In this document: positions 1 to 55,986 of the stretch, piece by piece | Layout of the letters: each line of letters starts with the position of its first letter | Numbering within the stretch: position 1 is the stretch's first letter | Source: Streptomyces sp. H39-S7 | GTDB taxonomy: Bacteria; Actinomycetota; Actinomycetes; Streptomycetales; Streptomycetaceae | DNA length: 64,000 bases | NCBI RefSeq assembly: GCF_027158205.1 | Contig: NZ_JAPVLU010000017.1 | Coordinates: forward strand, 62,001-126,000 | Reading direction: 5' to 3' | The notes under the pieces: generated by a model | What the model was told of the DNA's origin: nothing | What the model saw: the letters and a program-made list of their open reading frames with translations, nothing else | Database searches by the model: none | Program-made: the position numbers and the translations under genes

Positions 1-101
1 CAGGCCAGTCATCCGGCAACGACGACGTTCCCCTATCTCGCCGCTCCCAACCCGCGACCCCCCGAGCCGCCGGGCCACCACCACCTACCCCTGAAGGACC
101 A

Positions 102-1451
102 ATGAGCACGCCTTCAGCAGATGAGTACGTCGCACTGGAGTGGGACGACATCCAGAGCGGGGCGCTGCACGAGCGCCCGTCCCCGTACGTCGGCCGCTAC
201 GTGCTCATCCGCATCGACGACCCCGCAGCCGGTCGTGAACTGGTCCGGCGGCTGCTTCCCGCGATCGAAGCAGGCCATCCGACCGCCGATCCCGCCCGCG
301 ACGCCTGGATCACGGTCGCCTTCACCTACCAGGGCTTGCGCGCCCTGGGTGTCCCGTCCGACTCGCTCGACAGCTTCGCGCCCGAGTTCCGGGCGGGTAT
401 GGCCGCGCGGGCAGCAGAGTTGGGGGACGTCGGTGAGAGCGATCCCGGCAACTGGGAGCAGCCGCTCGGCACCCCGGCCGTGCACATCGCGCTGGCCGCG
501 CTGTCGCCCGACAGTGTGAGATTGACCAAGGTCATGGAACGGGCGCAGCAGGCTTACGGGCAGCTGCCGGGCATCGAGGTGATCTGGCGGCAGGACTGCT
601 ACCAACTGGAGACGGGGCGGACCTCGTTCGGTTTCCGTGACGGGATCGGTCAGCCCGCCGTGGAGGGGACCGGGAAGAACACCAACCCGCACGAGGCACC
701 CATCAAGGCCGGCGAGTTCCTCCTCGGCTATCCCGACGAGACGGGTGCGCTGCCGCCGATGCCCTCCCCGGACGTCCTAGGCCGGAACGGCACCTACCTG
801 GTCTTCCGGAAGTTGCACACGCGGGTCGCCGCCTACCGTCAGTACCTGCACGACCAGGCGTCCAGCCGTGCGGAAGAGCGCCTGCTCGCCGCGAAGACGG
901 TCGGCCGCTGGCCCAGCGGCGCGCCGCTGAGCCTGAGCCCGGACCAGGACGATCCAGAGCTCGGCGCGGATCCGGACCGCAACAACCGATTCAGTTACCA
1001 CGACGACCTGGACGGTTTCAAATGCCCGGCCGGTGCCCACGCGCGGCGCGCCAACCCGAGGGGCGCGCTGGACCATGAGAACAGCGTCAACGTCCGGCTG
1101 CACCGCATGATCCGTCGCAGCACCAGCTACGGACCCTCGCTCCCGGAAGGAGTGCGGGAGGACGACGGCGCCGACCGGGGCATCGTCTTCGTCTGCGTCG
1201 GCGCCCATCTCAAAAGGCAGTTCGAGTTCGTGAAGACGCAGTGGCTGAACGACGGAATCTTCATCGGCGCGCCGCAGGAGGCGGATCCGCTGGTCGGACG
1301 CTCCGACACCCCGGGCGTGTTCACCATCCCGCGGCGGCCGGTGCGAAGGAGGCTGCGGAACCTGCCGCCGTTCGTCGTCACGCGCGGTGGAGAGTACTTC
1401 TTCGTCCCCGGCCTGCGGGCCCTTCGCTGGCTCTCGGAACTCGACAGTTGA
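102..1451 (+). CDS. DyP-type (dye-decolourising) haem peroxidase
   Basis: This 449-residue protein belongs to the DyP peroxidase family, haem enzymes that use hydrogen peroxide to oxidise dyes and phenolics. The family GxxDG motif is seen as GFRDGIGQP near residue 178; its Asp is the distal acid. The CPAGAHARRANPR segment near residue 313 matches the proximal haem-His motif, followed by RMIRRSTSYG with the conserved Arg. No signal peptide is visible, so it is probably cytoplasmic. It is the first gene of an apparent three-gene operon (31-bp and about 50-bp gaps). The frame stays open to the window edge, so the ATG start, with a weak GAAGGA just upstream, is the least certain part. The physiological substrate is unknown. 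Confidence 0.9.
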   Translation: MSTPSADEYVALEWDDIQSGALHERPSPYVGRYVLIRIDDPAAGRELVRRLLPAIEAGHPTADPARDAWITVAFTYQGLRALGVPSDSLDSFAPEFRAGMAARAAELGDVGESDPGNWEQPLGTPAVHIALAALSPDSVRLTKVMERAQQAYGQLPGIEVIWRQDCYQLETGRTSFGFRDGIGQPAVEGTGKNTNPHEAPIKAGEFLLGYPDETGALPPMPSPDVLGRNGTYLVFRKLHTRVAAYRQYLHDQASSRAEERLLAAKTVGRWPSGAPLSLSPDQDDPELGADPDRNNRFSYHDDLDGFKCPAGAHARRANPRGALDHENSVNVRLHRMIRRSTSYGPSLPEGVREDDGADRGIVFVCVGAHLKRQFEFVKTQWLNDGIFIGAPQEADPLVGRSDTPGVFTIPRRPVRRRLRNLPPFVVTRGGEYFFVPGLRALRWLSELDS

Positions 1452-1481
1452 CCTGCGGTCGAACCGCACGAAGGAGCGACA

Positions 1482-2348
1482 GTGACCACGCAACCGAACC
1501 GTTCCGACCGGTGGGCCGCCATGGGTTTCACCCCGGCGGCAGCAGACGTCGACGAACCGGACCAGCCCGTCCTGGTCGAGTACCTCTCGGACGGAAAGAT
1601 CGCCCTGATCACCCTGAACCGGCCTGAGGCCGACAACGCGATCACGACCGCGATGGGTACCCGGCTGACCGAGATCCTGGAGACCGTCGCCGTCCGCGCT
1701 CAGGTCCGCGTCGCCGTCGTCACCGGCGCCGGCGACCGCGCGTTCTCCATCGGCAGCGACCTCAGTCAGCGCAAGCAGATGACCAAGGAGGACTGGCTGC
1801 GCCAACGTCAGGACTTCGACCGGGTCCTCTACACGCTGAGGCAACTGCGCAAACCGATCTTCGCCGCGGTCAACGGGCTGGCCTTCGGCGGCGGTTCCGA
1901 ACTCGCGCAGAGCACGGACTTCATCATCGCCGCCGACAACGCCGTGTTCGGCCAGCCGGAAGCGATGATCGGATTGTCCGCCGGCGGCGGCTCGCCGGTG
2001 CTGCTGCCCCGCGTCCTGCCCCGCGGCAAGGCCCTGCAAATGCTGATGACGGGCGAATCGGTCTCCGCGCAGGAGGCCTACCGGCTGGGGATGGCCAACG
2101 AGGTACACCCGCAAGCCGATCTCATGGCGGCGGCCCTCAAGATCGCCGAGAGGATCGCCAACAACTCACCCACAGCGGTGCAGGCGGTCAAACGGGCCGT
2201 CCGTATGAGTGACGGCGAACCGCTCGAGCAGGCGATCTCGATCATGATGGAGGCGCACTGGCGATCCGCGGTCCACCCCGACCGCGTCGAAGGGATCGCA
2301 GCGTTCATCGAAGACCGTGAGCCCCATTTCCAGGACCCGGACTACTGA
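1482..2348 (+). CDS. Enoyl-CoA hydratase/isomerase family protein
   Basis: This 288-residue protein has the crotonase fold: the oxyanion segment VTGAGDRAFSIGSDL, then GLAFGGGSELAQ and QPEAMIGLSAGGG, which carry both glutamates used by hydratases. It probably hydrates or isomerises an acyl-CoA thioester in the cytoplasm. The GTG start has an AAGGAGCGAC ribosome-binding site 31 bp after the peroxidase gene, which suggests co-transcription. An N-terminal extension of about 30 residues precedes the fold. The usual FSAG oxyanion motif reads FSIG here, so the substrate range may differ. The family also contains isomerases, dehalogenases and hydrolases, so the exact reaction is not assigned. Confidence 0.85.
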   Translation: MTTQPNRSDRWAAMGFTPAAADVDEPDQPVLVEYLSDGKIALITLNRPEADNAITTAMGTRLTEILETVAVRAQVRVAVVTGAGDRAFSIGSDLSQRKQMTKEDWLRQRQDFDRVLYTLRQLRKPIFAAVNGLAFGGGSELAQSTDFIIAADNAVFGQPEAMIGLSAGGGSPVLLPRVLPRGKALQMLMTGESVSAQEAYRLGMANEVHPQADLMAAALKIAERIANNSPTAVQAVKRAVRMSDGEPLEQAISIMMEAHWRSAVHPDRVEGIAAFIEDREPHFQDPDY

Positions 2349-2404
2349 CATGCCCTGCCTCGCGCGGGCGTGTTCCGACAGGTACCCCGAAGGAAGTGAC
2401 CAAC

Positions 2405-3460
2405 ATGGCCGCACCGCGAAGCCGTGAACAAGCACGCTCGGACCTCGTCATGATCCAACCCGAGCCGTTCAACGCCGAGGCCCCACGGCAGGGGCTGTCC
2501 TCGGACATCACCCCGGTCGGCCAGCACTACGTGCGCAGCAACTTCGCACTGCCCGCCCACGACGGCGTGCTGAGGATCGATGGCGCGGTCCGACACACGA
2601 GCGAGCTCACGCTCGACGACCTGCGCGCGATGCCCAGCATCCAACGAACCGTCACCCTGGAATGCGCCGGAAACGGACGCCTGGCGCAAAGTCCGCTACC
2701 GGTGGGCGAGCCCTGGGGCGGCTGGGCGGTGTCGACCGCCCGATGGACCGGCACCCTGCTCCACGAGGTACTGCGCCAGGCAGGCCCGGCCGACGACGCG
2801 GTCGAGGTCATCTTCCACGGCGCGGACCACGGTCCGTACTACCAGTTCGAGGACCTCAAGTACGCCCGGTCGCTTCCCTTCGCGCACACCATGGACCCGG
2901 ACGCCGAGATCCTCATCGCCTACGACATGAACGACGAACCGCTCAACGCCGACCACGGCGCACCGTTCCGGCTGATCGTCCCCAACTGGTACGGAGTCGC
3001 GTCGGTGAAGTGGCTCGACCGGATCGAGGTCGTGACCCGGCCTTACGAAGGCGAGTTCCAGACCGGCCACTACATGTACGAGTGGGCGGACCAACCGCAC
3101 GAACCGGTCACCTTGATGCGCGTACGGGCCCGCATCACCGACCCGGAACCAGGGCAGAACCTCCCTCTTGGCCCGTGCCGCGTCAAAGGCAAGGCATGGA
3201 GCGGCACTGGGCCGATCACCCGCGTCGAGGTCAGTCTGACCGGCGAGGGAGAGTGGTATCCCGCCCACGTCGAACCCGCAGACTCCCCCTACCAGTGGCA
3301 GGACTGGCACTTCGACTGGGTCCCCACCACAGTCGGGCGGCACACGCTGCGCGCCCGCGCGACCGACGCCGCCGGCAACGTCCAACCCGAAGTCCCGCCA
3401 TGGAACCGCCTGGGCTACGGCAACAACGGCGTCGAGGTTCAGTTCGTCCAGGTCGTGTGA
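2405..3460 (+). CDS. Sulfite-oxidase-family molybdopterin enzyme
   Basis: The protein (351 residues from ATG 2405) shows the sulfite oxidase fold: an N-terminal molybdopterin domain with the Mo-ligand cysteine in LECAGNGR near residue 86, GEPWGGWAVSTARWTG, FRLIVPNWYGVASVKWL, and a C-terminal Ig-like dimerisation domain from about residue 230. Known members oxidise sulfite or reduce sulfoxides. A GTG start 9 bp upstream is possible, but ATG 2405 lies at normal distance from GAAGGAAG. No Tat or Sec signal is visible, so it is probably cytoplasmic. It ends an operon with the peroxidase and crotonase genes, so the three may act in one oxidative pathway; this is inference from position only. Confidence 0.85.
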   Translation: MAAPRSREQARSDLVMIQPEPFNAEAPRQGLSSDITPVGQHYVRSNFALPAHDGVLRIDGAVRHTSELTLDDLRAMPSIQRTVTLECAGNGRLAQSPLPVGEPWGGWAVSTARWTGTLLHEVLRQAGPADDAVEVIFHGADHGPYYQFEDLKYARSLPFAHTMDPDAEILIAYDMNDEPLNADHGAPFRLIVPNWYGVASVKWLDRIEVVTRPYEGEFQTGHYMYEWADQPHEPVTLMRVRARITDPEPGQNLPLGPCRVKGKAWSGTGPITRVEVSLTGEGEWYPAHVEPADSPYQWQDWHFDWVPTTVGRHTLRARATDAAGNVQPEVPPWNRLGYGNNGVEVQFVQVV

Positions 3461-3489
3461 GACACGCCCCGTGACCCCGGTTTCATCGT

Positions 3490-3990
3490 TGGTGTGTGAC
3501 GGGTGCAGCGCGTCGCGGGTCCTTTGCGGGTGGTCGGCCGGGGCAGCGACGTTGTGCGGGAGTCATGCGGCCTGGGCGAAGGTGTCGGGGGCAGGTTGAT
3601 GGTGCTGGAGGTGTGGGAGGAGCCGTTTTCCATGACCCGGTGGATCCGCAGGGCCGGGTCGGTGCACTGGTCCAGTTGCCGGAGGAACGCGGTGAACGCT
3701 GGCGAGTTGTTGCGCTCGATGCGCTGGGTGAGCCCTGTCCGGTGGCCACGTCCATGGCCGCGACCATGGAGACCGTGCCGTGGCGGCGGTACTCGACCTC
3801 GCGGCGCTCCTGGCGTCCAGGGCGGGCGCGCACGGTCGGGTGGCGGCGGGACTTGGCCTCCCGGCCGTGCGAACCCTACGTGCGCCACACCGCGCGATGG
3901 TCGAGCACGACGGACAGGACGAGCACATCCCGCTGTGCCGCATCGAAGCCCTCGGCGAGCCCGGCCCGCCGCGCGGTGGGCAGAACGGCG
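3490..3990 (-). pseudogene. Decayed IS630-family transposase
   Basis: On the minus strand, fragments of an IS630-type DDE transposase sit in different frames. One frame reads RHGTVSMVAAMDVATGQ, the family's conserved second-Asp region. After a shift near 3740 a second frame continues with RIERNNSPAFTAFLRQLDQ and ends in the motif MENGSSHTSS. The N-terminal HTH region and the final catalytic Glu region are not recognisable, and the ends are unclear. It is therefore a broken relic, not an active element. It lies next to a second transposase fragment and a tRNA fragment, which marks this stretch as an insertion hot spot. Confidence 0.75.
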
Positions 3991-4049
3991 GATTACGTTG
4001 ACGGCACTGGGCACCCCCGGCGCGCGGCAGGCTCACGAGGTGAACTGAT

Positions 4050-4568
4050 ATGCACAGACTCTTTCCATGGCAGCGTGCATCGCATGCGGATCGTCGTGCC
4101 CTGCGTACGGATTACGCCGGGGCCGTCTACGGATCGCTCCTGGCCGCCTCCGTGATCGCCGCAGCAAGTAGCGTCGGCGAGTTTCCCCGCCTCGAGACTG
4201 TTGTGCTTCTGCTCGTCACCGGGCTGGTGTTCTGGGCCGTCCACGTCTACGCGCGCCTCACCGGCGAGCGGACGGTCGGCCGGAGCATCACCTGGTCCGA
4301 GACCTGGCGGATCGGACGCAGTGAGTGGTCCATGGTGGAGGCAGCCGTCCTGCCGAGCGCCGTCGTAGCTCTGAGCCCTGTGCTTGGACTGAGCCTGACG
4401 GCCACAGGGTGGACCGCACTCCTCGTCGCTGTGGCGCAGCAGGTGACGTGGAGCTATTTCGGCGCCCTGCACGCCAGTGGGTCTCGTCGCCGAGGGGCAA
4501 CGGAGGCCGCGGTGAACTTGGTGTTCGGTTTGATCATCGTCGCTGCGAAATCCCTTCTTGGTCACTGA
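4050..4568 (+). CDS. Small integral membrane protein, function unknown
   Basis: This 172-residue protein has about four hydrophobic segments (roughly residues 27-40, 48-68, 105-125 and 150-168), with a basic N-terminus and Arg-rich linkers between them. I recognise no enzyme or transporter motif; small hypothetical membrane proteins of this layout are common in Streptomyces. A GAGGTG ribosome-binding site precedes the ATG. It stands alone between two transposase relics in what looks like an integrated region, so it may be cargo of that element or a survivor between insertions. Confidence 0.6.
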   Translation: MHRLFPWQRASHADRRALRTDYAGAVYGSLLAASVIAAASSVGEFPRLETVVLLLVTGLVFWAVHVYARLTGERTVGRSITWSETWRIGRSEWSMVEAAVLPSAVVALSPVLGLSLTATGWTALLVAVAQQVTWSYFGALHASGSRRRGATEAAVNLVFGLIIVAAKSLLGH

Positions 4569-4641
4569 CCTCGATCGAGCTCTTCGGCGCTGGCCGGCAT
4601 CCGACCGCCCAGCGGTGGGCCAGCCGCTACCGCGAGCTATA

Positions 4642-4800
4642 GGGTCCGTTGCGAAAGTGGATCTTGATCGGTGATGATCATGGTGTGCCACGTGGAGAGC
4701 TGACGGATGCACGGTGGGCAAGACTGGAGCCGTTGCTGCCGGTAGGTGGCAACCCGGGGCGCGGTGCGGTGGAGTCCCGGCCGATCAGATCAGCGGCGGA
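4642..4800 (+). pseudogene. IS5-type transposase N-terminal fragment
   Basis: From about 4685 the plus strand reads RGELTDARWARLEPLLP, the characteristic N-terminus of IS5-group transposases (elt.e.w..iepLLP). The similarity stops after roughly 35 codons and nothing of the catalytic DDE domain follows. The sequence GGGTCCGTTGCGAAAGTGG just upstream (4642-4660) may be the terminal inverted repeat of the element, though no partner repeat is present. This is a truncated end of an insertion sequence, cut off close to the tRNA fragment. Confidence 0.6.
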
Positions 4801-4812
4801 CACCGCCCGCCT

Positions 4813-4830
4813 GGCCTGACGGGTCAGGCC
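4813..4830. repeat. Short inverted repeat beside the att-like site
   Basis: GGCCTGAC and GTCAGGCC form a perfect 8-bp inverted repeat with a 2-bp centre, 34 bp before the tRNA-derived fragment. It could be a protein-binding arm site of a former integrative element or a small hairpin; nothing in the sequence decides between these. Confidence 0.35.
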
Positions 4831-4864
4831 GCATCGCCGCCGTCGGGTGATCGCGGTGCCCTAA

Positions 4865-4912
4865 AGGACTCATAATCCGTCGGTCGTGGGTTCGAGTCCC
4901 ACCCGCCCCACC
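4865..4912 (+). other. 3' fragment of tRNA(CAU), probable att scar
   Basis: This stretch is the 3' half of a tRNA with anticodon CAU (elongator Met or Ile2): anticodon loop CTCATAA, 3' anticodon strand TCCGT, T-arm GTGGG-TTCGAGT-CCCAC and acceptor strand CCGCCCC followed by A. Upstream there is no matching acceptor strand GGGGCGG and no D-arm, and the 5' anticodon strand pairs imperfectly, so the gene is not intact. Site-specific integrases often recombine within the anticodon region and leave just such a displaced 3' end. The hrdA side is then the original chromosome and the left side the integrated DNA. Confidence 0.7.
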
Positions 4913-4995
4913 TTGGCCTGCTGGAGCAGAATCGTTCGGGCCAACGCCTGTCGCGTCAGGGCCTCGTCGGCCGTGGCGGCCGCGGGACGGGGCGA

Positions 4996-6222
<1,227 letters not shown>

Positions 6223-6363: not shown

Positions 6364-8292
6364 TTACAGGGCCTCGGTGCCCTGTTCCCGCAGCCGCTGG
6401 CCGTACTGCTGCAGCGCCCACAACTCGCTCTGGACGGCGCCGAGCTCCTCGGCCCCCGCGCGCGGGCCGAGCCGGGTGAGATTGGCCCGGACCTCGCTGA
6501 TGCGCCGCTCGACGGCCTGCCGCCGGACGGCGACGAGCTGCATGCCCGCGTAGACCTCGTCGGGGGCCCGCCGGGTGTGGGTGGCCTCGACGGCCAGTTC
6601 GGTGACGAGGATCCGGACGGTGTCGTCCGGGGCCACCTCGCGGACGCGGGTGAGGTAGTTGTCGTCCGCGTGCTCGGTGCCGCCGGCCTCGGCGATGGCC
6701 CGCCGGACGGCGGCGTACGGCGGGGCGGTGAACTCGTCCTCGCCGTAGGCGTCGAAGGCCGGGGAGACCAGGTGCGGGTGCTGGAGGGCGAGCTTGAGCA
6801 GCTCGCGCTCCACCCGGTGGGAGGGGCTGCGCAGGTCCAGCCGCGGTCCGCGCGGCGGCTGCGGCCGGGTGACGCCCTGGCCGGCGCCACCGGAACCCTG
6901 GCCGCCCTGCCCCGGGCCCTGCTGGCGGTCGCGGCGCGGGTCCGGGCCGCGCTGGCCGCGGTCGCGGGCCCAGCGGGCGAGCTGGGAGACCCGGCGGACG
7001 ACGAACTGCTCGTCCAGGATGCCGAGCTTGGAGGCGAGCGACACCGCGTACTCGTGCTGGATGGACCCGTCCTTGATCCCGGCGACGATCGGTGCGGCTT
7101 CCTCCAGCGCGGCGGCGCGGCCCTCGGCGGTGTCGGTGTTGTGGCGGGCGACGGCGCTGTGGATGGCGAACTCGAAGAGCGGCGAGGAGTTCTCGACGAG
7201 GTTGCGCACGGCCGCGTCACCGTCGGCGAGCCGCAGCTCGCAGGGGTCCATGCCGCCGGGGCTGATCGCGATGGAGGTGCGGGCGGCGAACTTCTGGTCG
7301 TCCTCGAAGGCGCGCAGTGCGGCCCGCTGGCCGGCCGCGTCACCGTCGAAGGTGAAGACGACGTGCGAGCTGGAGTTGTCCATCAGCAGCCGGCGGAGGA
7401 TCTTGATGTGGTCCTCGGCGAAGGCGGTGCCGCAGGTGGCGATGGCGGTCGTGACGCCCGCGAGATGGCAGGCCATGACGTCGGTGTATCCCTCGACGAC
7501 GACGGCCTTGCCGGTCTTGGCGATCTCCTTCTTGGCGAGGTCGATGCCGTACAGCACATGGGACTTCTTGTAGAGCGGGGTCTCGGGGGTGTTCAGGTAC
7601 TTGGGCCCGTTGTCGTCCTCGCGGAGCTTGCGGGCGCCGAAGCCGATCACGTCACCGGTGATGTCGCGGATCGGCCAGATCAGCCGGCCGCGGAAGCGGT
7701 CGATCGCCCCGCGGCGGCCCTCGCTGGCCAGCCCGGACGTGAGCAGTTCCTTGTCGGTGAAGCCCTTGCCGCGCAGGAAGCGGATCAGGTGGTCCCACCC
7801 GGCGGGCGCGTAGCCGACGCCGAAGTGCTCGGCGGCGGCCTGGTCGAAGCCGCGCTCGGTGAGGAACTTGCGGCCGATCTCGGCCTCGGCGCTGCCGAGC
7901 TGCTCGACGAAGAACTGCGCGGCGACCTTGTGCGCCTCGATCAGCCGGATCTTCTCGCCCTGCTGGCGGCCGGGGTTGTACCCGCCCTCGTCGTACCGCA
8001 GCACGATGCCGGTCTTGGCGGCCAGCCGCTCGACGGCCTCGGAGAAGGAGAGGTGGTCGAGCTTCATGACGAAGTCGAGCGTGTCGCCGCCCTCTTGGCA
8101 GCCGAAGCAGTAGAAGAGCCCCTTCGAGGGACTCACCTGGAACGAAGGGGACTTTTCATCATGAAAGGGGCAGAGCCCTTTCAGGTTCCCCCCGCCCGCG
8201 TTCTTGAGCTGCAGGTACTCCGAGATGACGGCGTCGATCGGGACCGCGTCCCGGACCGCCTTGACGTCCTCATCCTTGATCCTGCCTGCCAC
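6364..8292 (-). CDS. dnaG: DNA primase
   Basis: This 642-residue primase synthesises RNA primers at the replication fork. The N-terminal CHC2 zinc finger is complete (Cys41, His44, Cys62, Cys65 in CPFHDEKSPSF...YCFGC). The RNA polymerase core follows, with GFGARKL and the TOPRIM motif VVEGYTDVMAC near residue 265, then FDGDAAGQRAALR. A Gly/Gln/Arg-rich linker (about residues 460-500) leads to the C-terminal helicase-binding domain. Length is normal for Streptomyces. The start at MAGRIKDED fits the family. It is transcribed toward hrdA and diverges from the GH9 gene. Confidence 0.97.
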   Translation of the reverse strand: MAGRIKDEDVKAVRDAVPIDAVISEYLQLKNAGGGNLKGLCPFHDEKSPSFQVSPSKGLFYCFGCQEGGDTLDFVMKLDHLSFSEAVERLAAKTGIVLRYDEGGYNPGRQQGEKIRLIEAHKVAAQFFVEQLGSAEAEIGRKFLTERGFDQAAAEHFGVGYAPAGWDHLIRFLRGKGFTDKELLTSGLASEGRRGAIDRFRGRLIWPIRDITGDVIGFGARKLREDDNGPKYLNTPETPLYKKSHVLYGIDLAKKEIAKTGKAVVVEGYTDVMACHLAGVTTAIATCGTAFAEDHIKILRRLLMDNSSSHVVFTFDGDAAGQRAALRAFEDDQKFAARTSIAISPGGMDPCELRLADGDAAVRNLVENSSPLFEFAIHSAVARHNTDTAEGRAAALEEAAPIVAGIKDGSIQHEYAVSLASKLGILDEQFVVRRVSQLARWARDRGQRGPDPRRDRQQGPGQGGQGSGGAGQGVTRPQPPRGPRLDLRSPSHRVERELLKLALQHPHLVSPAFDAYGEDEFTAPPYAAVRRAIAEAGGTEHADDNYLTRVREVAPDDTVRILVTELAVEATHTRRAPDEVYAGMQLVAVRRQAVERRISEVRANLTRLGPRAGAEELGAVQSELWALQQYGQRLREQGTEAL

Positions 8293-48140: not shown

Positions 48141-49283
48141 TCAGCCGCCCGACGTGTCCAGCTCGGCTTCCGGGCTGACGGCGGCGCAGTCGTACGGGTC
48201 GTTCAGCCAGCCGTCCGGGAGCACGACACGGTTGTTGCCGGCGGTGCGTCCGCGCGGGCCCTCGGCGCCCTCGGGCCAGGCCTGGCCGAGGTCGACCGCG
48301 GCCAGGTGTTCGTCCAGTTCGGCGAGCGAGGAGGAAACGGCCAGGCTGCGGCGCAGCTGGGAGCCGACCGAGAAGCCCTTGGTGTACCAGGCGACGTGCT
48401 TGCGGAAGTCGATCACGCCGCGCGCCTCGTCGCCGATCCACTCGCCGAGCAGCTCGGCGTGGCGGCGCATGACGACGGCGACCTCCCGGAAGGTCGGCCG
48501 CGCCTGGGCGTTGCCGCCCTCCATCGCGCTGACCAGGTCGCCGAAGATCCAGGGGCGGCCGAGGCAGCCGCGGCCGACCACGACGCCGTCGGCGCCGGTC
48601 TCGCGCATCATGCGCAGGGCGTCGTCGGCGCGCCAGATGTCGCCGTTGCCGAGCACCGGGATCTCCGGGACGTGCTCCTTGAGGCGGGCGATGGCGTCCC
48701 AGTCGGCGGTGCCGCCGTAGTGCTGGGCGGCGGTGCGGCCGTGCAGGGCGACCGCGGTGATGCCCTCCTCGACGGCGATCCGGCCCGCGTCGAGGTACGT
48801 CAGGTGGTCGTCGTCGATGCCCTTGCGCATCTTGATCGTGACCGGCAGGGCGCCCGCGTTGCCGACCGCCTCGCGCAGGATCGAGCGCAGCAGGTTCCGC
48901 TTGTACGGGAGGGCCGAGCCGCCGCCCTTGCGGGTCACCTTGGGCACCGGGCAGCCGAAGTTGAGGTCGATGTGGTCGGCCAGGCCCTCGTCCGCGATCA
49001 TGCGGACGGCCTTGCCGACGGTCACCGGGTCGACGCCGTAGAGCTGGATGGAGCGCGGCTTCTCGGTCGCGTCGAAGCGGATCAGCCGCAGCGTCTTGGA
49101 GTCCCGCTCGACCAGCGCGCGGGTGGTGATCATCTCGCTGACGAACAGCCCCTTGCCGCCGGAGAACTCACGGCACAGCGTGCGGAAGGGCGCGTTGGTG
49201 ATGCCGGCCATGGGGGCGAGCACCACGGGCGGCCACACGGTGTGCGGGCCGATCTGGAGTGGCATGGTGGCGTCAGCGGTCAT
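48141..49283 (-). CDS. dusB: tRNA-dihydrouridine synthase
   Basis: This 380-residue flavoenzyme reduces uridines in tRNA D-loops. The FMN-binding TIM barrel starts with VLAPMAGITNAPFRTLCREF; SIQLYGVDP, HIDLNFGCPVPKVTRKGGGSAL (catalytic Cys in NFGCP), VTIKMRKGID, ALHGRTAAQHY and VVVGRGCLGRPWIF follow. The C-terminal helical domain includes FRKHVAWYTKGF. ATG 49283 is chosen since the frame upstream is not conserved. It is transcribed away from an MFS exporter gene across a 105-bp divergent space. Confidence 0.94.
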   Translation of the reverse strand: MTADATMPLQIGPHTVWPPVVLAPMAGITNAPFRTLCREFSGGKGLFVSEMITTRALVERDSKTLRLIRFDATEKPRSIQLYGVDPVTVGKAVRMIADEGLADHIDLNFGCPVPKVTRKGGGSALPYKRNLLRSILREAVGNAGALPVTIKMRKGIDDDHLTYLDAGRIAVEEGITAVALHGRTAAQHYGGTADWDAIARLKEHVPEIPVLGNGDIWRADDALRMMRETGADGVVVGRGCLGRPWIFGDLVSAMEGGNAQARPTFREVAVVMRRHAELLGEWIGDEARGVIDFRKHVAWYTKGFSVGSQLRRSLAVSSSLAELDEHLAAVDLGQAWPEGAEGPRGRTAGNNRVVLPDGWLNDPYDCAAVSPEAELDTSGG

Positions 49284-49388
49284 GGCCCCATTGTCGCGTA
49301 CGCCGGACGGGGATGTGGATGTACCGTTCACGCATCTGTGTGCCCTTGACCACGAGGCCGGAGAACGGCTGATCCCTGGAGGTCCGAC

Positions 49389-50807
49389 GTGCCGGAACTG
49401 AGCTCCCGGCGGCGCATGCTCGTGCTGGCGATCTGCTGCATGAGCCTGCTCATGGTCAGCCTCGACAACACCATCCTCAACGTGGCACTGCCCTCCATGC
49501 AGAAGGAGCTGCACGCCTCGGTCGCCGGGCTGCAGTGGACGATCGACGCGTACACGCTGGTGCTGGCCTCGCTGCTGATGCTCGCCGGCTCGACGGCCGA
49601 CCGGATCGGCCGCCGCCGGGTCTTCCAGACCGGGTTGGTGCTGTTCACCGCGGGCTCGGTGCTCTGCAGCCTCGCGCCGAGCCTCAACTGGCTGATCGCC
49701 TTCCGCATGGTGCAGGCGGTCGGCGGCTCGATGCTCAACCCCGTCGCGATGTCGATCATCACCAACACCTTCACCGAGCCACGCGAGCGCGCCCGTGCGA
49801 TCGGGGTGTGGGGCGGCGTCGTCGGCGTCAGCATGGCGGCCGGCCCGGTGCTCGGCGGGCTGCTCGTCCAGACCGTCGGCTGGCGCTCCATCTTCTGGAT
49901 CAACCTCCCGGTCGGGCTGCTCGCCCTCGTCCTGACCGCCCGCTACGTTCCCGAATCGCGCGCCGCCAAGGCGCGCCGGGTGGACCCGGTCGGCCAGCTC
50001 TTCGTCATCGCCCTGCTCGGCTCGCTCACGTACGCGATCATCGAGGCGCCGGCCGCGGGCTGGACGTCGGCGCTGATCCTCGGCTGCCTGGCGGTCGCGA
50101 TCGGCTCGCTCGCCGGGCTGCTGACCTACGAGCGGCGCCGGGTGGACCCGCTGATCGAGCTCGGCTTCTTCCGCAGCGCGCCCTTCAGCGGCGCCACGGT
50201 CATAGCGGTGAGCGCCTTCGCGGCGCTCGGCGGCTTCCTCTTCCTCAACACCCTGTACCTGCAGAACACCCGCGGGCTCTCCGCCCTCGACGCCGGGCTC
50301 TACATGCTGCCCATGGCCGTCATGTGCCTGGTCTTCGCCCCGCTGTCCGGGCGGCTGGTCGCCAACCGGGGACCGCGGCTGTCGCTGGTGCTCGCGGGCA
50401 CCGCGATGACGATCAGCGGCGTGCTGTTCGCGGCGCTGGACGCCGAGTCCTCCAACACGCTGCTCTTCACCTCGTACGTGATCTTCGGCATCGGGTTCGG
50501 TCTGGTCAACGCGCCGATCACCAACACCGCCGTGTCCGGGATGCCGCGGTCGCAGGCCGGGGTGGCCGCGGCCGTCGCCTCCACCAGCCGCCAGGTCGGG
50601 CAGTCGCTCGGGGTCGCCGTGATCGGCGCCGCCGTCGCCGCGGAGCTGCACACCGCGGCCTGGTGGATCATCGCGGGCTGCGGCGCGCTCGTCCTGCTCC
50701 TCGGCGCGCTCACCACCGGCCGCTGGGCGGCCGGGACCGCGGAACGGGCCGCGGAGCGGCTGCGGGAACCCGCGGCCAGGCCCGCCGGGGCGCTGGCGAA
50801 GAACTGA
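49389..50807 (+). CDS. MFS exporter, DHA2 (14-helix) type
   Basis: This 472-residue drug:proton antiporter has motif D LVSLDNTILNVALP in the first helix, motif A GSTADRIGRRRVFQTGLVLF in loop 2-3, motif B RMVQAVGGSMLNP and motif C GPVLGGLLVQTVGW. These define the DHA2 family (EmrB/QacA), which exports drugs or secondary metabolites. GGAGG lies 7 bp before the GTG start. Its end converges with an XRE regulator gene. No ligand can be predicted. Confidence 0.92.
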   Translation: MPELSSRRRMLVLAICCMSLLMVSLDNTILNVALPSMQKELHASVAGLQWTIDAYTLVLASLLMLAGSTADRIGRRRVFQTGLVLFTAGSVLCSLAPSLNWLIAFRMVQAVGGSMLNPVAMSIITNTFTEPRERARAIGVWGGVVGVSMAAGPVLGGLLVQTVGWRSIFWINLPVGLLALVLTARYVPESRAAKARRVDPVGQLFVIALLGSLTYAIIEAPAAGWTSALILGCLAVAIGSLAGLLTYERRRVDPLIELGFFRSAPFSGATVIAVSAFAALGGFLFLNTLYLQNTRGLSALDAGLYMLPMAVMCLVFAPLSGRLVANRGPRLSLVLAGTAMTISGVLFAALDAESSNTLLFTSYVIFGIGFGLVNAPITNTAVSGMPRSQAGVAAAVASTSRQVGQSLGVAVIGAAVAAELHTAAWWIIAGCGALVLLLGALTTGRWAAGTAERAAERLREPAARPAGALAKN

Positions 50808-50822
50808 CAGCGAAGAACTGAC
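50796..50822 (+). repeat. 13-bp tandem duplication at an MFS stop codon
   Basis: GCGAAGAACTGAC occurs twice, separated by one base, at the end of the DHA2 exporter gene. The first copy contains the stop codon, the second repeats it in another register. A 14-bp duplication (GACCGCGGGAAGGG / GGCCGCGGGAAGGG) follows directly. These are slippage products of no clear function. Confidence 0.6.
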
Positions 50823-50873
50823 GGCGCAGGACCGCGGGAAGGGCCGCGGGAAGGGCCGATGGAGGGCCCGCTG

Positions 50874-51782
50874 CTACCGCCCGGCCGCCGCGAGCACCGG
50901 TCGCGCCTCGTCCGCCGGGGAGGCGCAGAGCTCGTACAGCCGCTGCAGCCGGGTGCGCGTCACCTCGTCCGCCGGGGTGTACGTCACGAGCCGCGGGCCG
51001 GAGCGCGGGCCGAGCCACAGGTGGGTGAAGTCGAACGTGAGCAGCCCGACCTGCGGGTTGAGATAACGCTTGGAGCGGTTGTCCGGCTGGAGCACCTCAT
51101 GGCGGTCCCATGCCTCGCAGAACTCCGGTGACGCCTGCTGGAGGCGCTTGAGGAGCGACTTCCAGGCCGGCTCGGCAAGGTGCTCGGCCATGCCGGACCG
51201 GAACTTGGCGGCCATCAGCCGGATCACCTCCTCGCGGTCGATCAGCGCCTCGCGCCACGCGGGGTCGGTGAAGGCGAGCCACATGATGTTGCGGTCCTCG
51301 AAGGGCCGCGCGTCCAGGTCGTCGATCAGCCGGTTGTACGTGCGGTTGTACGCGATCACGTCGTGCCGGCTGTTGGCGACGAAGGCGGGCAGCGGTTCCA
51401 GCTGCCGCAGCATCAGGCGGATCTGGTCCGACATGCCGGGGCAGTCGGCGAACGGGCTGGGGTCGGCGACACCGGCGAGGGTGAACAGGTGCACCCGCTC
51501 GTTTCGATCGAGCATCAGCGCGCGGGCGATGGCGTCGGCGACCTGCGCGGACACCTGGATCTCCCTCGCCTGCTCCAGCCACGTGTACCAGGTCACGCCG
51601 ACCGCGGCGAGCTGCGCGACCTCCTCGCGGCGCAGCCCCGGCGTCCGGCGCCGCCGCCCCGCGGGCAGCCCGACCTGCTCGGGAGCGATGCGCTCGCGGC
51701 GGCTGCGCAGGAACGAGGCGAGCTCGCGCCGCTTGATGTCGGCACCCGACTCGTACTGCGCGGTGGTCGTCGTCGTAGGCAT
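50874..51782 (-). CDS. XRE regulator with MmyB-type ligand domain
   Basis: This 302-residue regulator starts with IKRRELASFLRSRRERIAPEQVGLPAGRRRRTPGLRREEVAQLAAVGVTWYTWLEQ-type sequence (helix-turn-helix about residues 40-65) followed by an MmyB-like PAS-fold domain (LPAFVANSRHDVIAYNRTYNRLI, LNPQVGLLTFDFTHLWL) that binds fatty-acid-like ligands in one known structure. It commonly sits next to an oxidoreductase or transporter it controls; here a DHA2 exporter gene diverges from it. An inverted repeat covers its start codon. Confidence 0.88.
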   Translation of the reverse strand: MPTTTTTAQYESGADIKRRELASFLRSRRERIAPEQVGLPAGRRRRTPGLRREEVAQLAAVGVTWYTWLEQAREIQVSAQVADAIARALMLDRNERVHLFTLAGVADPSPFADCPGMSDQIRLMLRQLEPLPAFVANSRHDVIAYNRTYNRLIDDLDARPFEDRNIMWLAFTDPAWREALIDREEVIRLMAAKFRSGMAEHLAEPAWKSLLKRLQQASPEFCEAWDRHEVLQPDNRSKRYLNPQVGLLTFDFTHLWLGPRSGPRLVTYTPADEVTRTRLQRLYELCASPADEARPVLAAAGR

Positions 51783-51797
51783 GCTTTCAGCATGCCT
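51777..51797. promoter_or_regulatory. Inverted repeat over the XRE start codon
   Basis: AGGCATGC and GCATGCCT form a perfect 8-bp inverted repeat with a TTTCA spacer, overlapping the start codon of the XRE/MmyB regulator and lying about 75 bp before the divergent exporter gene. A binding site for the regulator itself is the likely role. Confidence 0.55.
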
Positions 51798-51871
51798 GAT
51801 CGCGCAGACAGTTGCGTGGTGGTTCTTATACCTGGATAAACGCTCTCTGGTACCACCCTGAAAACGGGCGC

Positions 51872-53365
51872 ATGGTGGCTCACGTGACCCCAATGGAACG
51901 CACTCCCGTCCTTCCCTCCCGTGCCGCGGTCCTCCCCCGCGTGACCCGCATCGGGACTCCCCCGGCCGCCGGGCGCCCCGCCGGTCCGGTCCTGACCGCG
52001 CTCGGCCTGTTCACCGTGCTGCTCGGCGCGGCCCTGCCGCTGATCGACTTCTTCATCGTCAACGTCGCCCTGCCGACCATCGACCGCGACCTCGCCGCGG
52101 GGCCGGCCCTGCTGGAGCTGGTGGTGGCCGGCTACGGGACCGCGTACGCCGTGCTCCTGGTGCTCGGCGGGCGGCTCGGCGACATGTTCGGCCGCCGCCG
52201 GCTCTTCCTCGCCGGGATGGCCGCCTTCGGCCTGACCTCGCTGGCCTGCGGCCTCGCGCCGGACGCCTGGACGCTGGTCGGCGCCCGGGTCGCGCAGGGC
52301 GCCGCGGCCGCGCTGATGCTCCCCCAGGTGCTCGCCACCATCCAGTCCACCACCGCCGGGACCCGGCGCGCCCGCGCGCTGAGCCTGTACGGCGCCACGG
52401 CCGGCCTGTCGATGGTCGCCGGGCAGATCCTCGGCGGCGTGCTGGTGGCCGCCGACATCGCCGGCACCGGCTGGCGCGCGGTGTTCCTGGTGAACGTGCC
52501 GGTCGCGCTGATCGGCCTGGTCCTGGCGGCCCGCACCCTCCCCGAGACCCGCTCCGAGCGCCCCGCCCCGATCGATGTCCCGGGCACCGTGCTGCTGGCC
52601 GTCTCCCTGATCACGCTGCTGGCGCCGCTGACCGAGGGCCGCGCCTCCGGCTGGCCGCTGTGGACCTGGATCTCCCTCGCCGCCTTCCCCTTCACGGCCT
52701 GCGCGTTCTACGCCGTCGAGCGCCGCGCGGACCGGCAGGGCCGCACCCCGCTGGTGCCGCCGAGCCTGTTCGAACTCCCCGGCATCCGGCGCGGTCTGCC
52801 GCTCGTCGTGCCGTTCTCCATCGGCTTCGGCGGCTTCATGCTCGTGATGGCCGTCGCCCTGCAGCAGGGCCTGGCCTTCGGCCCGATCGCGGCCGGCGCG
52901 GCGATGGCCCCGCTGGCCGTCACCTTCTTCGCCGCGTCGCTGATGGGCCCGCGCCTGGTCGCGCGGTACGGCAGCCGGGTGGTCACCGTCGGCGGCCTGA
53001 TCCAGGCCCTCGGCCTACTCCTCCTGGTCGCCGCCGCCCTGCACGACTGGCAGCACCTGAGCCTTCTCCTCCTCGCCCCGGGCATGGCGGTGGCCGGCTT
53101 CGGCCAGGGCCTGCAGCTCCCGGTGCTCTTCCGCATCGTGCTCGCGGAGGTGCCCGCAGAGCGGGCGGGCGTCGGCAGCGGCGTCATGGTCACCACACAG
53201 CAGTCCGCGCTCGCGCTCGGCGTGGCGACCCTCGGCACCCTCTTCCTGGCCCTGATCACCTCGGCCGGCATGCGGAACGCCCTGGTCATCACCCTGCTCG
53301 TCCAGCTCGGCGCCGTCGCTCTGACGATCCTGCTCAGCCTGCGGCTCCCGCGTCACGTCTCCTGA
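51872..53365 (+). CDS. MFS exporter, DHA2 (14-helix) type
   Basis: About 497 residues. Motif D is ALPLIDFFIVNVALPTI, motif A GGRLGDMFGRRRLFLAGMAAF, motif B RVAQGAAAALMLPQVLA and motif C GQILGGVLVAADI, defining a DHA2-type proton-coupled multidrug exporter. Start choice is uncertain: ATG 51872 and ATG 51893 are both in frame, and neither has a clear ribosome-binding site. It diverges from the XRE/MmyB regulator, which probably controls it. Confidence 0.9.
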   Translation: MVAHVTPMERTPVLPSRAAVLPRVTRIGTPPAAGRPAGPVLTALGLFTVLLGAALPLIDFFIVNVALPTIDRDLAAGPALLELVVAGYGTAYAVLLVLGGRLGDMFGRRRLFLAGMAAFGLTSLACGLAPDAWTLVGARVAQGAAAALMLPQVLATIQSTTAGTRRARALSLYGATAGLSMVAGQILGGVLVAADIAGTGWRAVFLVNVPVALIGLVLAARTLPETRSERPAPIDVPGTVLLAVSLITLLAPLTEGRASGWPLWTWISLAAFPFTACAFYAVERRADRQGRTPLVPPSLFELPGIRRGLPLVVPFSIGFGGFMLVMAVALQQGLAFGPIAAGAAMAPLAVTFFAASLMGPRLVARYGSRVVTVGGLIQALGLLLLVAAALHDWQHLSLLLLAPGMAVAGFGQGLQLPVLFRIVLAEVPAERAGVGSGVMVTTQQSALALGVATLGTLFLALITSAGMRNALVITLLVQLGAVALTILLSLRLPRHVS

Positions 53366-53453
53366 GTGGAATGACCCCTGAATGAAATGACAACAATTGA
53401 AATCTGTCACTCCATCTGCCATGCTTCGGTTACCCCCTCCCAAGGAGCACCCC

Positions 53454-54464
53454 GTGCTGAAGCGCACCCTCGGATCCACCGGCCCCTCCGTCTCCGCCCT
53501 CGGCCTCGGCGCCATGGGCATGTCGGCCCTCTACGGCGGCACTGACGAGGCCGAGTCGACCGCCACCGTCCACGCCGCACTCGACGCCGGCGTCACCCTC
53601 ATCGACACCGGCGACTTCTACGGCATGGGCCACAACGAACTCCTCCTCCGCGACGCCCTGCGCAGCAGCTCCCAGGGCCGCGACCAGGCCGTGCTCAGCG
53701 TCAAGTTCGGCGCACTGCGCGACATCGACGGCGGCTGGTCCGGCATGGACGGCCGGCCCGCCGCGGTGAAGAACTTCCTCGCCTACTCCCTCAACCGCCT
53801 CGGCACCGACCACATCGACGTCTACCGGATCGCCCGCGTCGACCCCGACGTGCCGATCGAGGAGACGGTCGGCGCCATCGCCGACCAGGTCCAGGCCGGC
53901 CACGTCCGCCACATCGGTCTCTCCGAGGTCGGCGCGGACGCCCTGCGCCGGGCCGCGGCCACCGCCCCGATCGCGGACCTGCAGATCGAGTACTCCCTCT
54001 TCTCCCGCGGCATCGAGGCCGACATCCTGCCCACCGCCCGCGAGCTGGGCATCGGCATCACCGCGTACGGCGTCCTCTCCCGCGGCCTGCTCAGCGGCCA
54101 CTGGACCCGCGAGCGCTCCGAGCAGAGCGGCGCCAACGGCGACTTCCGCGGCATGAGCCCGCGCTTCTCCGGCGACAACCTGGACCGCAACCTCGCCCTC
54201 GTGGAGGCACTCCGCAAGATCGCCGAAGGCAAGGGCGTGAGCGTCGCGCAGGCCGCGATCGGCTGGGTCCTCGCCCAGGGCCCGGACATCGTCCCGATCA
54301 TCGGCGCCCGCCGCCGCGACCGCCTCGCCGAGGCGCTCGGCGCCCTCGACATCACCCTCGGCGCGGCCGACCTCGCGGCCATCGAAGCGGCGGTCCCCGC
54401 CGGAGCGGCAGCGGGCGCGCGCTACCCGGAAGCGCAGATGGCCCACCTCGACAGCGAGCGCTGA
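53454..54464 (+). CDS. Aldo/keto reductase
   Basis: This 336-residue NADPH-dependent reductase has the AKR barrel: GLGAMGMSALYGG, TLIDTGDFYGMGHNE (catalytic Asp and Tyr), LSVKFG (Lys), GLSEVGADALRRA and VPIIGARRRDRLAEALGA for the cofactor. The catalytic His segment, usually YLHR, reads YRIARVDPDVPIE, so His is replaced by Ala as in a subgroup of actinobacterial AKRs. GTG 53454 follows AAGGAG. A TetR gene starts 122 bp downstream in the same direction. Confidence 0.9.
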   Translation: MLKRTLGSTGPSVSALGLGAMGMSALYGGTDEAESTATVHAALDAGVTLIDTGDFYGMGHNELLLRDALRSSSQGRDQAVLSVKFGALRDIDGGWSGMDGRPAAVKNFLAYSLNRLGTDHIDVYRIARVDPDVPIEETVGAIADQVQAGHVRHIGLSEVGADALRRAAATAPIADLQIEYSLFSRGIEADILPTARELGIGITAYGVLSRGLLSGHWTRERSEQSGANGDFRGMSPRFSGDNLDRNLALVEALRKIAEGKGVSVAQAAIGWVLAQGPDIVPIIGARRRDRLAEALGALDITLGAADLAAIEAAVPAGAAAGARYPEAQMAHLDSER

Positions 54465-54586
54465 CGCTCCCGGCGGGTCAGGGAGGCAACGGCCTCGGGC
54501 GCGGGCCGCTGGAACGGGGTCCGGCACGGGTCCGGTCCCCGACCCAGCACACTGGGGACGTACGACCCCGCTGCGAGAGGCCCCCC

Positions 54587-55183
54587 ATGCCCACCCTGAC
54601 CACCGACCGCATCCTCGAAGCCACCGAGGAGGTCCTCCGCCGCTTCGGCCCCGCCAAGGCCACCGTCGTGGACGTGGCGCGAGCCCTCGGCGTCAGTCAC
54701 GGCACCGTCTACCGGCACTTCGCCAGCAAGGCCGCGCTCCGCGAAGCCGTCACCCAGCGCTGGCTCGACCAGTCCCACGCCACGCTCTCCGCCATCGCGG
54801 CCGGGCCGCAGCCCGCCCCCGAGCGGCTGCGGCAGTGGCTGGTGGAGCTGTTCGCGGCGAAGCGACGCAAGGCCGGCGGCGACCCGGAGCTGTTCGCGAC
54901 GTACCTGGCGCTCGCGGCCGAGGCCAGCGCCGTGGTGGCCCAGCACGTCGGGGACCTGGTCGGCCAGCTCACCCGCATCATCGAGGACGGGACCACGCGC
55001 GGCGAGTTCACCCTCCCCGAAGCGTCCGACCCGGCCCGCGCGGCGCGCGCCGTCTGGGACGCCACCGGCCGCTTCCACGACCCGGCCTACGCGGCCGAGT
55101 GGTCGGCGCCCGACATCGACGCCGCCTTCGAGGCGGTCTGCGACCTCCTCCTGAACGGACTCCGCGCTCAGGGCGCCTCGTAG
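54587..55183 (+). CDS. TetR-family transcriptional regulator
   Basis: This 198-residue repressor has the N-terminal DNA-binding domain ILEATEEVLRRFGPAKATVVDVARALGVSHGTVYRHFASKAAL and a helical ligand domain. The C-terminal part with DPARAARAVWDATGRFHDP resembles the group of TetR_C regulators controlling exporters or reductases. Target and inducer are unknown; the aldo/keto reductase upstream is a candidate. Its 3' end overlaps the end of the convergent DUF4097 gene by 16 bp. Confidence 0.9.
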   Translation: MPTLTTDRILEATEEVLRRFGPAKATVVDVARALGVSHGTVYRHFASKAALREAVTQRWLDQSHATLSAIAAGPQPAPERLRQWLVELFAAKRRKAGGDPELFATYLALAAEASAVVAQHVGDLVGQLTRIIEDGTTRGEFTLPEASDPARAARAVWDATGRFHDPAYAAEWSAPDIDAAFEAVCDLLLNGLRAQGAS

Positions 55184-55986
55184 ACCACGTCCACCGACCC
55201 GGACCCCGCCGTCGCGTCGATGACCCGCCGCGACGTGCCGTCCTCCAGCCCCGCCGCGTACTCCCGCGACCCGCTCCCGCTGCGCCCGACCACCTGGTAG
55301 CGGGAACCCGGCGGGACGCCGATCCGCACGGAGCCGGAGCCCACCTTCCCCGTCACCTTCTCCGGGGCCGAGCGGAACGCGAGGTCCAGCGAACCCGAGT
55401 TCGCCCCCACGTTCGCCGTCCGGGACGAGAGCCCGGTGCCCTCGATGGTGCCCGAGCCGGTGCGGGCCCAGATGGTGCCGCCGACGTCGGTCAGGGTCGT
55501 GGAGCCCGACGTGCTCGTCAGGTCCAGGCGGCCGGTGGTGCCGTGCACGTCCGTGGACCCGGAGCTGCCCACGATCTGGATCTCGATCTCCGGCGGGACG
55601 TCGAACTCCAGCTTCACCGAGCAGCCGAGGCCGGCCGGCGACCACCACTCGGAGCACACCGCCTGCACCTTCAGCACACCGCCGTCCCACACCTTCCTGA
55701 CCTGCGGCTTCTTCATCGACCAGGTCAGCTTCTGCGTGACGCGCACCTGGCCGGCCGGCCCCGGGCGCACCGTGACCGACGCGCTCCCCGCGTCGACCTG
55801 CAAGCGCTGGACCCGTCCCCCGGGCGCGAGTTCGATCGACTGGGAGGGCTCCGGCCGGTGCGCGCCGAAGTACGCCCAGGTCTCCACCGCCATCGGCGAC
55901 ACGATGAGCAGCGCACTGATCACCGCGACCACCAGCCAGGCCGCGCGGTGCTTCCGCCGCGCCCCAGCGGCGGCGGTGCCGCTCAC
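55168..55986 (-). CDS. DUF4097-type membrane-anchored beta-helix protein
   Basis: About 272 residues: one N-terminal transmembrane helix (AWLVVAVISALLIVSPMAV) and an extracytoplasmic domain rich in Gly, Ser and Thr repeats (SSGSTDVHGTTGRLDLTSTSGSTTLTDVGG), which fits the DUF4097 putative adhesin beta-helix. Two cysteines (VCSEWW, LGCSV) may form a disulfide. The GTG start overlaps the stop of the response regulator gene (GTGA), so the three genes form one operon and the protein may act in signal perception or be a system output. Function unknown. Confidence 0.75.
   Translation of the reverse strand: MSGTAAAGARRKHRAAWLVVAVISALLIVSPMAVETWAYFGAHRPEPSQSIELAPGGRVQRLQVDAGSASVTVRPGPAGQVRVTQKLTWSMKKPQVRKVWDGGVLKVQAVCSEWWSPAGLGCSVKLEFDVPPEIEIQIVGSSGSTDVHGTTGRLDLTSTSGSTTLTDVGGTIWARTGSGTIEGTGLSSRTANVGANSGSLDLAFRSAPEKVTGKVGSGSVRIGVPPGSRYQVVGRSGSGSREYAAGLEDGTSRRVIDATAGSGSVDVVYEAP

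Follow-up and report, generated by a model that had tools for sequence, protein, structure and literature searches.

A tRNA(CAU) gene fragment beside a sigma-70 gene in Streptomyces sp. H39-S7 as the probable far end of a decayed genomic island

A tRNA gene reduced to its 3' part could be the scar of a site-specific integration or the by-product of an ordinary rearrangement, and we asked which of these accounts for the tRNA(CAU) fragment that lies beside a sigma-70 gene in Streptomyces sp. H39-S7. The window analysed is a stretch of 64,000 nucleotides (positions 62001-126000 of contig C55 of this genome, G000), and its features are collected in Table 1. As the first-pass annotation had recognised, a tRNA(CAU) gene on the forward strand survives only as its 3' part and lacks the 5' half; the fragment, with the anticodon CAT, starts with the three final bases of the 5' strand of the anticodon stem and ends one base past the discriminator, and ARAGORN predicts no tRNA in the window. 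The CAU anticodon is common to tRNA Met and Ile2. That annotation also anticipated an intact CAU tRNA upstream with an identical 48-bp end, and such a gene (anticodon CAT) indeed lies outside the window at C55:55396-55470, on the same contig and strand and preceded by two tRNA-Asn genes; the two agree exactly over 46 bp, the fragment being a perfect copy of the last 46 bp of the intact gene, with about 11.4 kb between the copies. When window positions 4801-4920 were searched against the whole genome, three places were found: the query itself, the exact 46 bp at C55:55425-55470, and a match of 86% over 37 bp on contig C119 in a region of ARAGORN-called tRNA-Lys genes. Since this last is the sole third match, a chance origin of the 46-bp repeat is excluded. 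The locus thus has the two ends of a tRNA-site genomic island remnant, an intact tRNA gene at one end and an identical 3' fragment at the other. A crossover in the anticodon loop, as first proposed, is possible only; the 46-bp identity contains the T loop as well, and the exact crossover point is not resolvable inside it. We think it very probable that an 11-kb foreign block was inserted at the tRNA(CAU) gene and has since decayed, and that the fragment marks its far end.

Table 1. Features of the window around the tRNA(CAU) fragment (coordinates are window positions).
Feature	Position	Strand	Remark
Right part of island	1..4865		Continues upstream to C55:55471 (whole ~11.4 kb)
DUF4331 gene	1..105	+	3' end only in window; start upstream at C55:60951
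DyP-type peroxidase	102..1451	+	Island cargo
Enoyl-CoA hydratase/isomerase family gene	1482..2348	+	Island cargo
Molybdopterin oxidoreductase	2396..3460	+	Island cargo; resembles SorA/SoxC sulfite dehydrogenases but scores under the cut-offs of those models
IS630-family transposase relic	~3598..3830	-	Two frames; NCBIfam E 0.0021 and 0.0018
172-aa ORF	4050..4568	+	No Pfam or NCBIfam match; G027 DNA 99.2% identical
IS4/IS5-family transposase relic	~4700..4789	+	Pfam DUF4096 E 0.00043; NCBIfam IS5 model E 0.018
Junction	4858..4859	.	1,073 bp of G027 absent in own genome
CCCTAAA, last 7 bp of element-end arm	4859..4865	+	Full arm beside G027 fragment (..GCCAAGATCCCTAAA)
tRNA(CAU) 3' fragment, putative distal attachment-site copy (attR-like)	4866..4911	+	46-bp identity to intact tRNA
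Probable left-end arm of second, lost element	4912..4943	+	Resembles DNA after G017 copies c and d
Sigma-70 gene	4996..6222	-	Conserved flank
dnaG	6364..8292	-	Conserved flank

The block between the two tRNA copies carries cargo and relics. Its left end consists of about 0.4 kb and an RHS-gene relic, pieces of which match the relative G017 at 92-97%, and from C55:56920 onward its DNA is shared with a second relative, G027, at 95-98%. After the RHS relic come, in order, a SfLAP-family gene, a DUF2254 gene, a 180-aa ORF, the DUF4331 gene, the DyP-type peroxidase, the enoyl-CoA hydratase family gene, the SorA/SoxC-like oxidoreductase, the IS630-like relic, the 172-aa ORF and the IS4/IS5-like relic. 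The two transposase relics described earlier to the left of the fragment are both present, though short, and all their scores fall under the curated cut-offs. A Pfam scan of nine island ORFs gave no integrase, excisionase, relaxase, FtsK-like or phage protein, and no conjugation or replication gene was found among them; these ORFs include no integrase gene such as an intact tRNA-site island would have, none of the integrase, rep and FtsK-like traB genes of an actinomycete integrative and conjugative element (AICE), and none of the structural genes of a prophage. The first-pass suggestion of an integrase or excisionase gene beside the intact tRNA was not borne out in this genome, as the Pfam integrase (29 matches genome-wide at E<=1) and resolvase (8 matches) models gave none on contig C55. 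An HMM of integrases found beside this tRNA in relatives has a single match in the island, namely the tail encoded by the tRNA fragment itself.

The site can be compared in two states. Native DNA (CCTGAGGTCTTGCC...) comes after the tRNA in G033, with the sigma gene about 2 kb farther on; in G027 the same native DNA directly follows an identical 46-bp fragment, and the cargo of our window lies to the left of that fragment. The native flanks of the two agree at 94-96% over the first blocks and 87% over the last, so that G033 set against G027 provides the unoccupied site. The G027 island is split over two contigs, and the continuity of its middle is not proven. We considered whether its right end could be the 3' end of an integrase gene and rejected this, as its open frames gave no match by tblastn or HMM beyond the tRNA tail.

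Gene orientation in the relatives bears on the other origin, that the fragment is no attachment site and arose as a partial tRNA duplication by ordinary rearrangement, for example together with an inversion. Twenty of the 24 nearest congeners have the tRNA and the sigma gene (which we take to be hrdA) on one contig, ~6-21 kb apart and with the tRNA pointing away; only in G017 does it face the sigma gene, and three could not be judged (G004 and G016, with separate contigs, and G015, without a good tRNA match). G033 and our genome are arranged like G017. Compared with those 20 relatives, all three carry an inversion, relative to the sigma gene, of a block (C55:~49268-55470 in our genome) that includes the tRNA cluster as well as an ABC transporter and a sugar kinase; direct matches to the inverted block were obtained in four genomes, namely G019, G024, G006 and G010. 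The outer flank, too, runs the opposite way in G009 and G014 from G018 and G003, and therefore more than one inversion happened. If the majority order is ancestral, as we infer, the tRNA came to face the sigma gene only after inversion. No tRNA lies within 1.5 kb of the sigma gene in the loci of 29 relatives, because the tRNA cluster is farther off and mostly points the other way; this lack, which might be held against the site, is thus explained by distance and orientation. The inversions do lend something to a rearrangement origin, but it leaves unexplained why G027 and G033 are occupied and unoccupied forms that share their native border sequence, and why copies of the tRNA 3' end lie beside integrase genes or their remains in G005, G006, G010 and G017; we regard it as highly improbable.

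The integrase genes in question were sought in the DNA 3' of the tRNA in 24 relatives, by tblastn or by an HMM that was built from four of the tRNA-side integrases and covers one family only. A substantial tyrosine recombinase match lies directly at the tRNA in seven of them (G005, G006, G007, G009, G010, G017 and G021), split over frames in G007, G009 and G017; G023 and G024 retain short integrase remains that score scarcely above the tail encoded by the tRNA. In intact integrases the frame runs antisense into the tRNA, and at four loci (L070, L114, L116 and L119) it passes through the tRNA 3' half to a protein end in GGTRTHDRRIMS(PLL). The copies of the tRNA 3' end in G005, G006, G010 and G017 stand at distances from the gene. 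Between the tRNA of G017 and its sigma gene, 114 kb off, stand three further copies of the tRNA end, one of them carrying a single mismatch. This tandem array of ~114 kb spans L071-L077 (C1:2391034-2504802) with a broken-frame integrase adjoining the tRNA, and in its interior, annotated for integrases only, a truncated integrase-like stretch was found at L076:5720-6823 (HMM E 7.7e-05; tblastn 23% identity). Cargo at the tRNA varies: G006 has an AMP-binding enzyme, an FAD oxidoreductase and a P450, and the island at the same tRNA in G005 has Cas3, CT1975-like and Cas1 genes (L115, 6879-16885). HINT-domain (PT-HINT) genes occur at this tRNA at L076:8006-9997 (G017, RHS-like) and L114:11178-14069 (G006), and the RHS relic at C55:55856-56920 is all that our genome keeps of a gene of this type. 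Among the genes tested in the islands of G006, G010 and G005, which look intact, there was no tra or rep gene.

Is the block between the tRNA copies foreign? The proposal that the first 4.8 kb, including the peroxidase operon, is acquired DNA is borne out by the distribution of the cargo, its fourfold divergence and its lower GC. The 3460-bp cargo stretch is present whole at high identity (98%) in only one of 34 other congeners searched, G027, so the same gene order is not found in all close relatives; a DyP-like gene occurs elsewhere at 69% in two more (G028 and G010), and other cargo matches are short. GC is 66.7% in the island, 70.3% in the left flank and 73.1% in the right flank, and third-position GC is 0.72-0.87 in island genes compared with 0.90-0.96 on its sides. 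Between our genome and G027, fourfold sites differ at 71/1473 positions (4.8%) in island genes (4/143, 3/280, 12/93, 20/219, 17/254, 8/165, 4/202 and 3/117 per gene) and at 187/1418 (13.2%) in neighbouring core genes (44/369, 53/323, 25/195, 40/364 and 25/167), so that island divergence is about one third of that of the core neighbours. The island was therefore exchanged after the core diverged. Since the 180-aa gene (12/93, 12.9%) is core-like and DUF4331 (9.1%) intermediate, the island is a mosaic; over the compared loci (L082/L113) fourfold divergence ranges from 1% to 13%, a sign of mosaic exchange. A native block, lost in the relatives, would suit cargo that includes no mobility gene and its presence at the same place in G027, but it is hard to square with fourfold divergence at about a third of the core level, lower GC, absence from 33 of the 34 other congeners, and a border with a tRNA fragment and an arm; we give it almost no credence. 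These findings all indicate cargo of foreign origin. The cargo has moved between lineages, and integrase genes of one family occupy the same tRNA in relatives.

The borders of the fragment indicate how far the inserted block has been altered. To its left, an arm (GCCAAGATCCCYAAA) is common to G027 and three G017 copies, the latter with CCCCAAA in place of CCCTAAA, and our genome has its last seven bases; these plus the core have exact matches in a named genome collection (from which our own or very near records may be absent) in three stretches of two records only, G027 and G017. The DNA missing here relative to G027 lies between the second IS relic and those seven bases and comprises a transposase-like ORF and the element-end arm. 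To the right, 30 bp are 90% identical to sequence after G017 copy c (E 2e-4) and 24 bp are 92% identical to sequence after copy d (E 7e-4), and positions 4912-4943 do not resemble the native sequence that flanks the site in G033 and G027. Because copy c is inside the G017 array, these positions are probably an element end. Native-like DNA resumes ~67 bp right of the fragment, just before the sigma gene, and the ~2 kb of native flank shared by G033 and G027 was not found in our genome or in the compared G017 stretches. With that flank missing, the sequence at this edge suggests that stacked elements probably meet at the fragment, which would then be no clean edge of the conserved block. The conserved block reported to begin right of the fragment is there, with the sigma-70 gene and dnaG, though it is probably set off by ~32 bp resembling an element end. 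The simpler arrangement, a single element whose right border with native chromosome lies cleanly at the fragment, is exactly what G027 shows; in our genome those ~32 bp match DNA after two stacked G017 copies (one of them internal to the array) rather than the native flank of G033 and G027, and native-like DNA comes only ~67 bp on. As the match is short (E ~2e-4) and hence uncertain, we hold a clean border to be unlikely but well short of negligible.

An integration followed by decay would account for these observations as follows. A mobile element, or several in succession, would have integrated site-specifically into the 3' part of the tRNA(CAU) gene, a tyrosine recombinase recombining the gene with an element attachment site that copies the tRNA end. 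The element's own 46-bp copy would keep the tRNA gene at C55:55396-55470 intact, and the displaced 46 bp would remain as the fragment. Later history would be decay through IS insertion and deletion, with the right end trimmed by a 1.07-kb loss left of the fragment and loss of the ~2 kb native flank right of it. By analogy with the relatives, a tyrosine recombinase of their type probably made the insertion; the order of the losses is inferred.

A decayed tRNA-site island with accretion is an ordinary, well-understood genomic scar of a kind already described. PMC9513070 describes elements stacked at Streptomyces tRNA genes, sites left empty and remnants that have no integrase; its defective or decayed actinomycete integrative elements resemble ours in having tRNA 3'-end direct repeats, cargo only and a lost integrase, with empty sites in sister strains and several elements stacked at one tRNA (accretion). 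Our island differs in lying at a CAU tRNA with a sigma gene as neighbour, in having no partial integrase and in lacking traB, there the mark of a defective AICE. PMC3218068 likewise describes actinomycete elements integrating at tRNA 3' ends, one Frankia element in a tRNA-Met gene, and tandem arrays; AICEs with a tyrosine recombinase share this 3'-end integration, whereas no tra or rep gene was found in our island, and the intact-looking islands of G006, G010 and G005 carry other cargo. TIGER/Islander islands (PMC12424338) similarly have an intact tRNA at one end and a fragment at the other, and a common peak in their sizes is at ~10 kb; as only islands with an integrase gene enter that catalogue, our integrase-less remnant would go unlisted. 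No literature title on a CAU tRNA beside hrdA was found, which is not proof of absence in print.

These results place the left border of the window's conserved block, and the peroxidase operon is seen to be recent, exchangeable cargo. They also point to an integration hotspot at the CAU tRNA, one that catalogues requiring an integrase would miss in our genome. Repeated exchange of a block that lacks an integrase fits the low fourfold divergence from G027, and one might suppose that the remnant is mobile in cis, its attachment ends and arm pieces being usable by the integrase of a later-stacking element; we judge this quite doubtful. If true, peroxidase and sulfite-oxidase-like cargo would be carried between species in this way.
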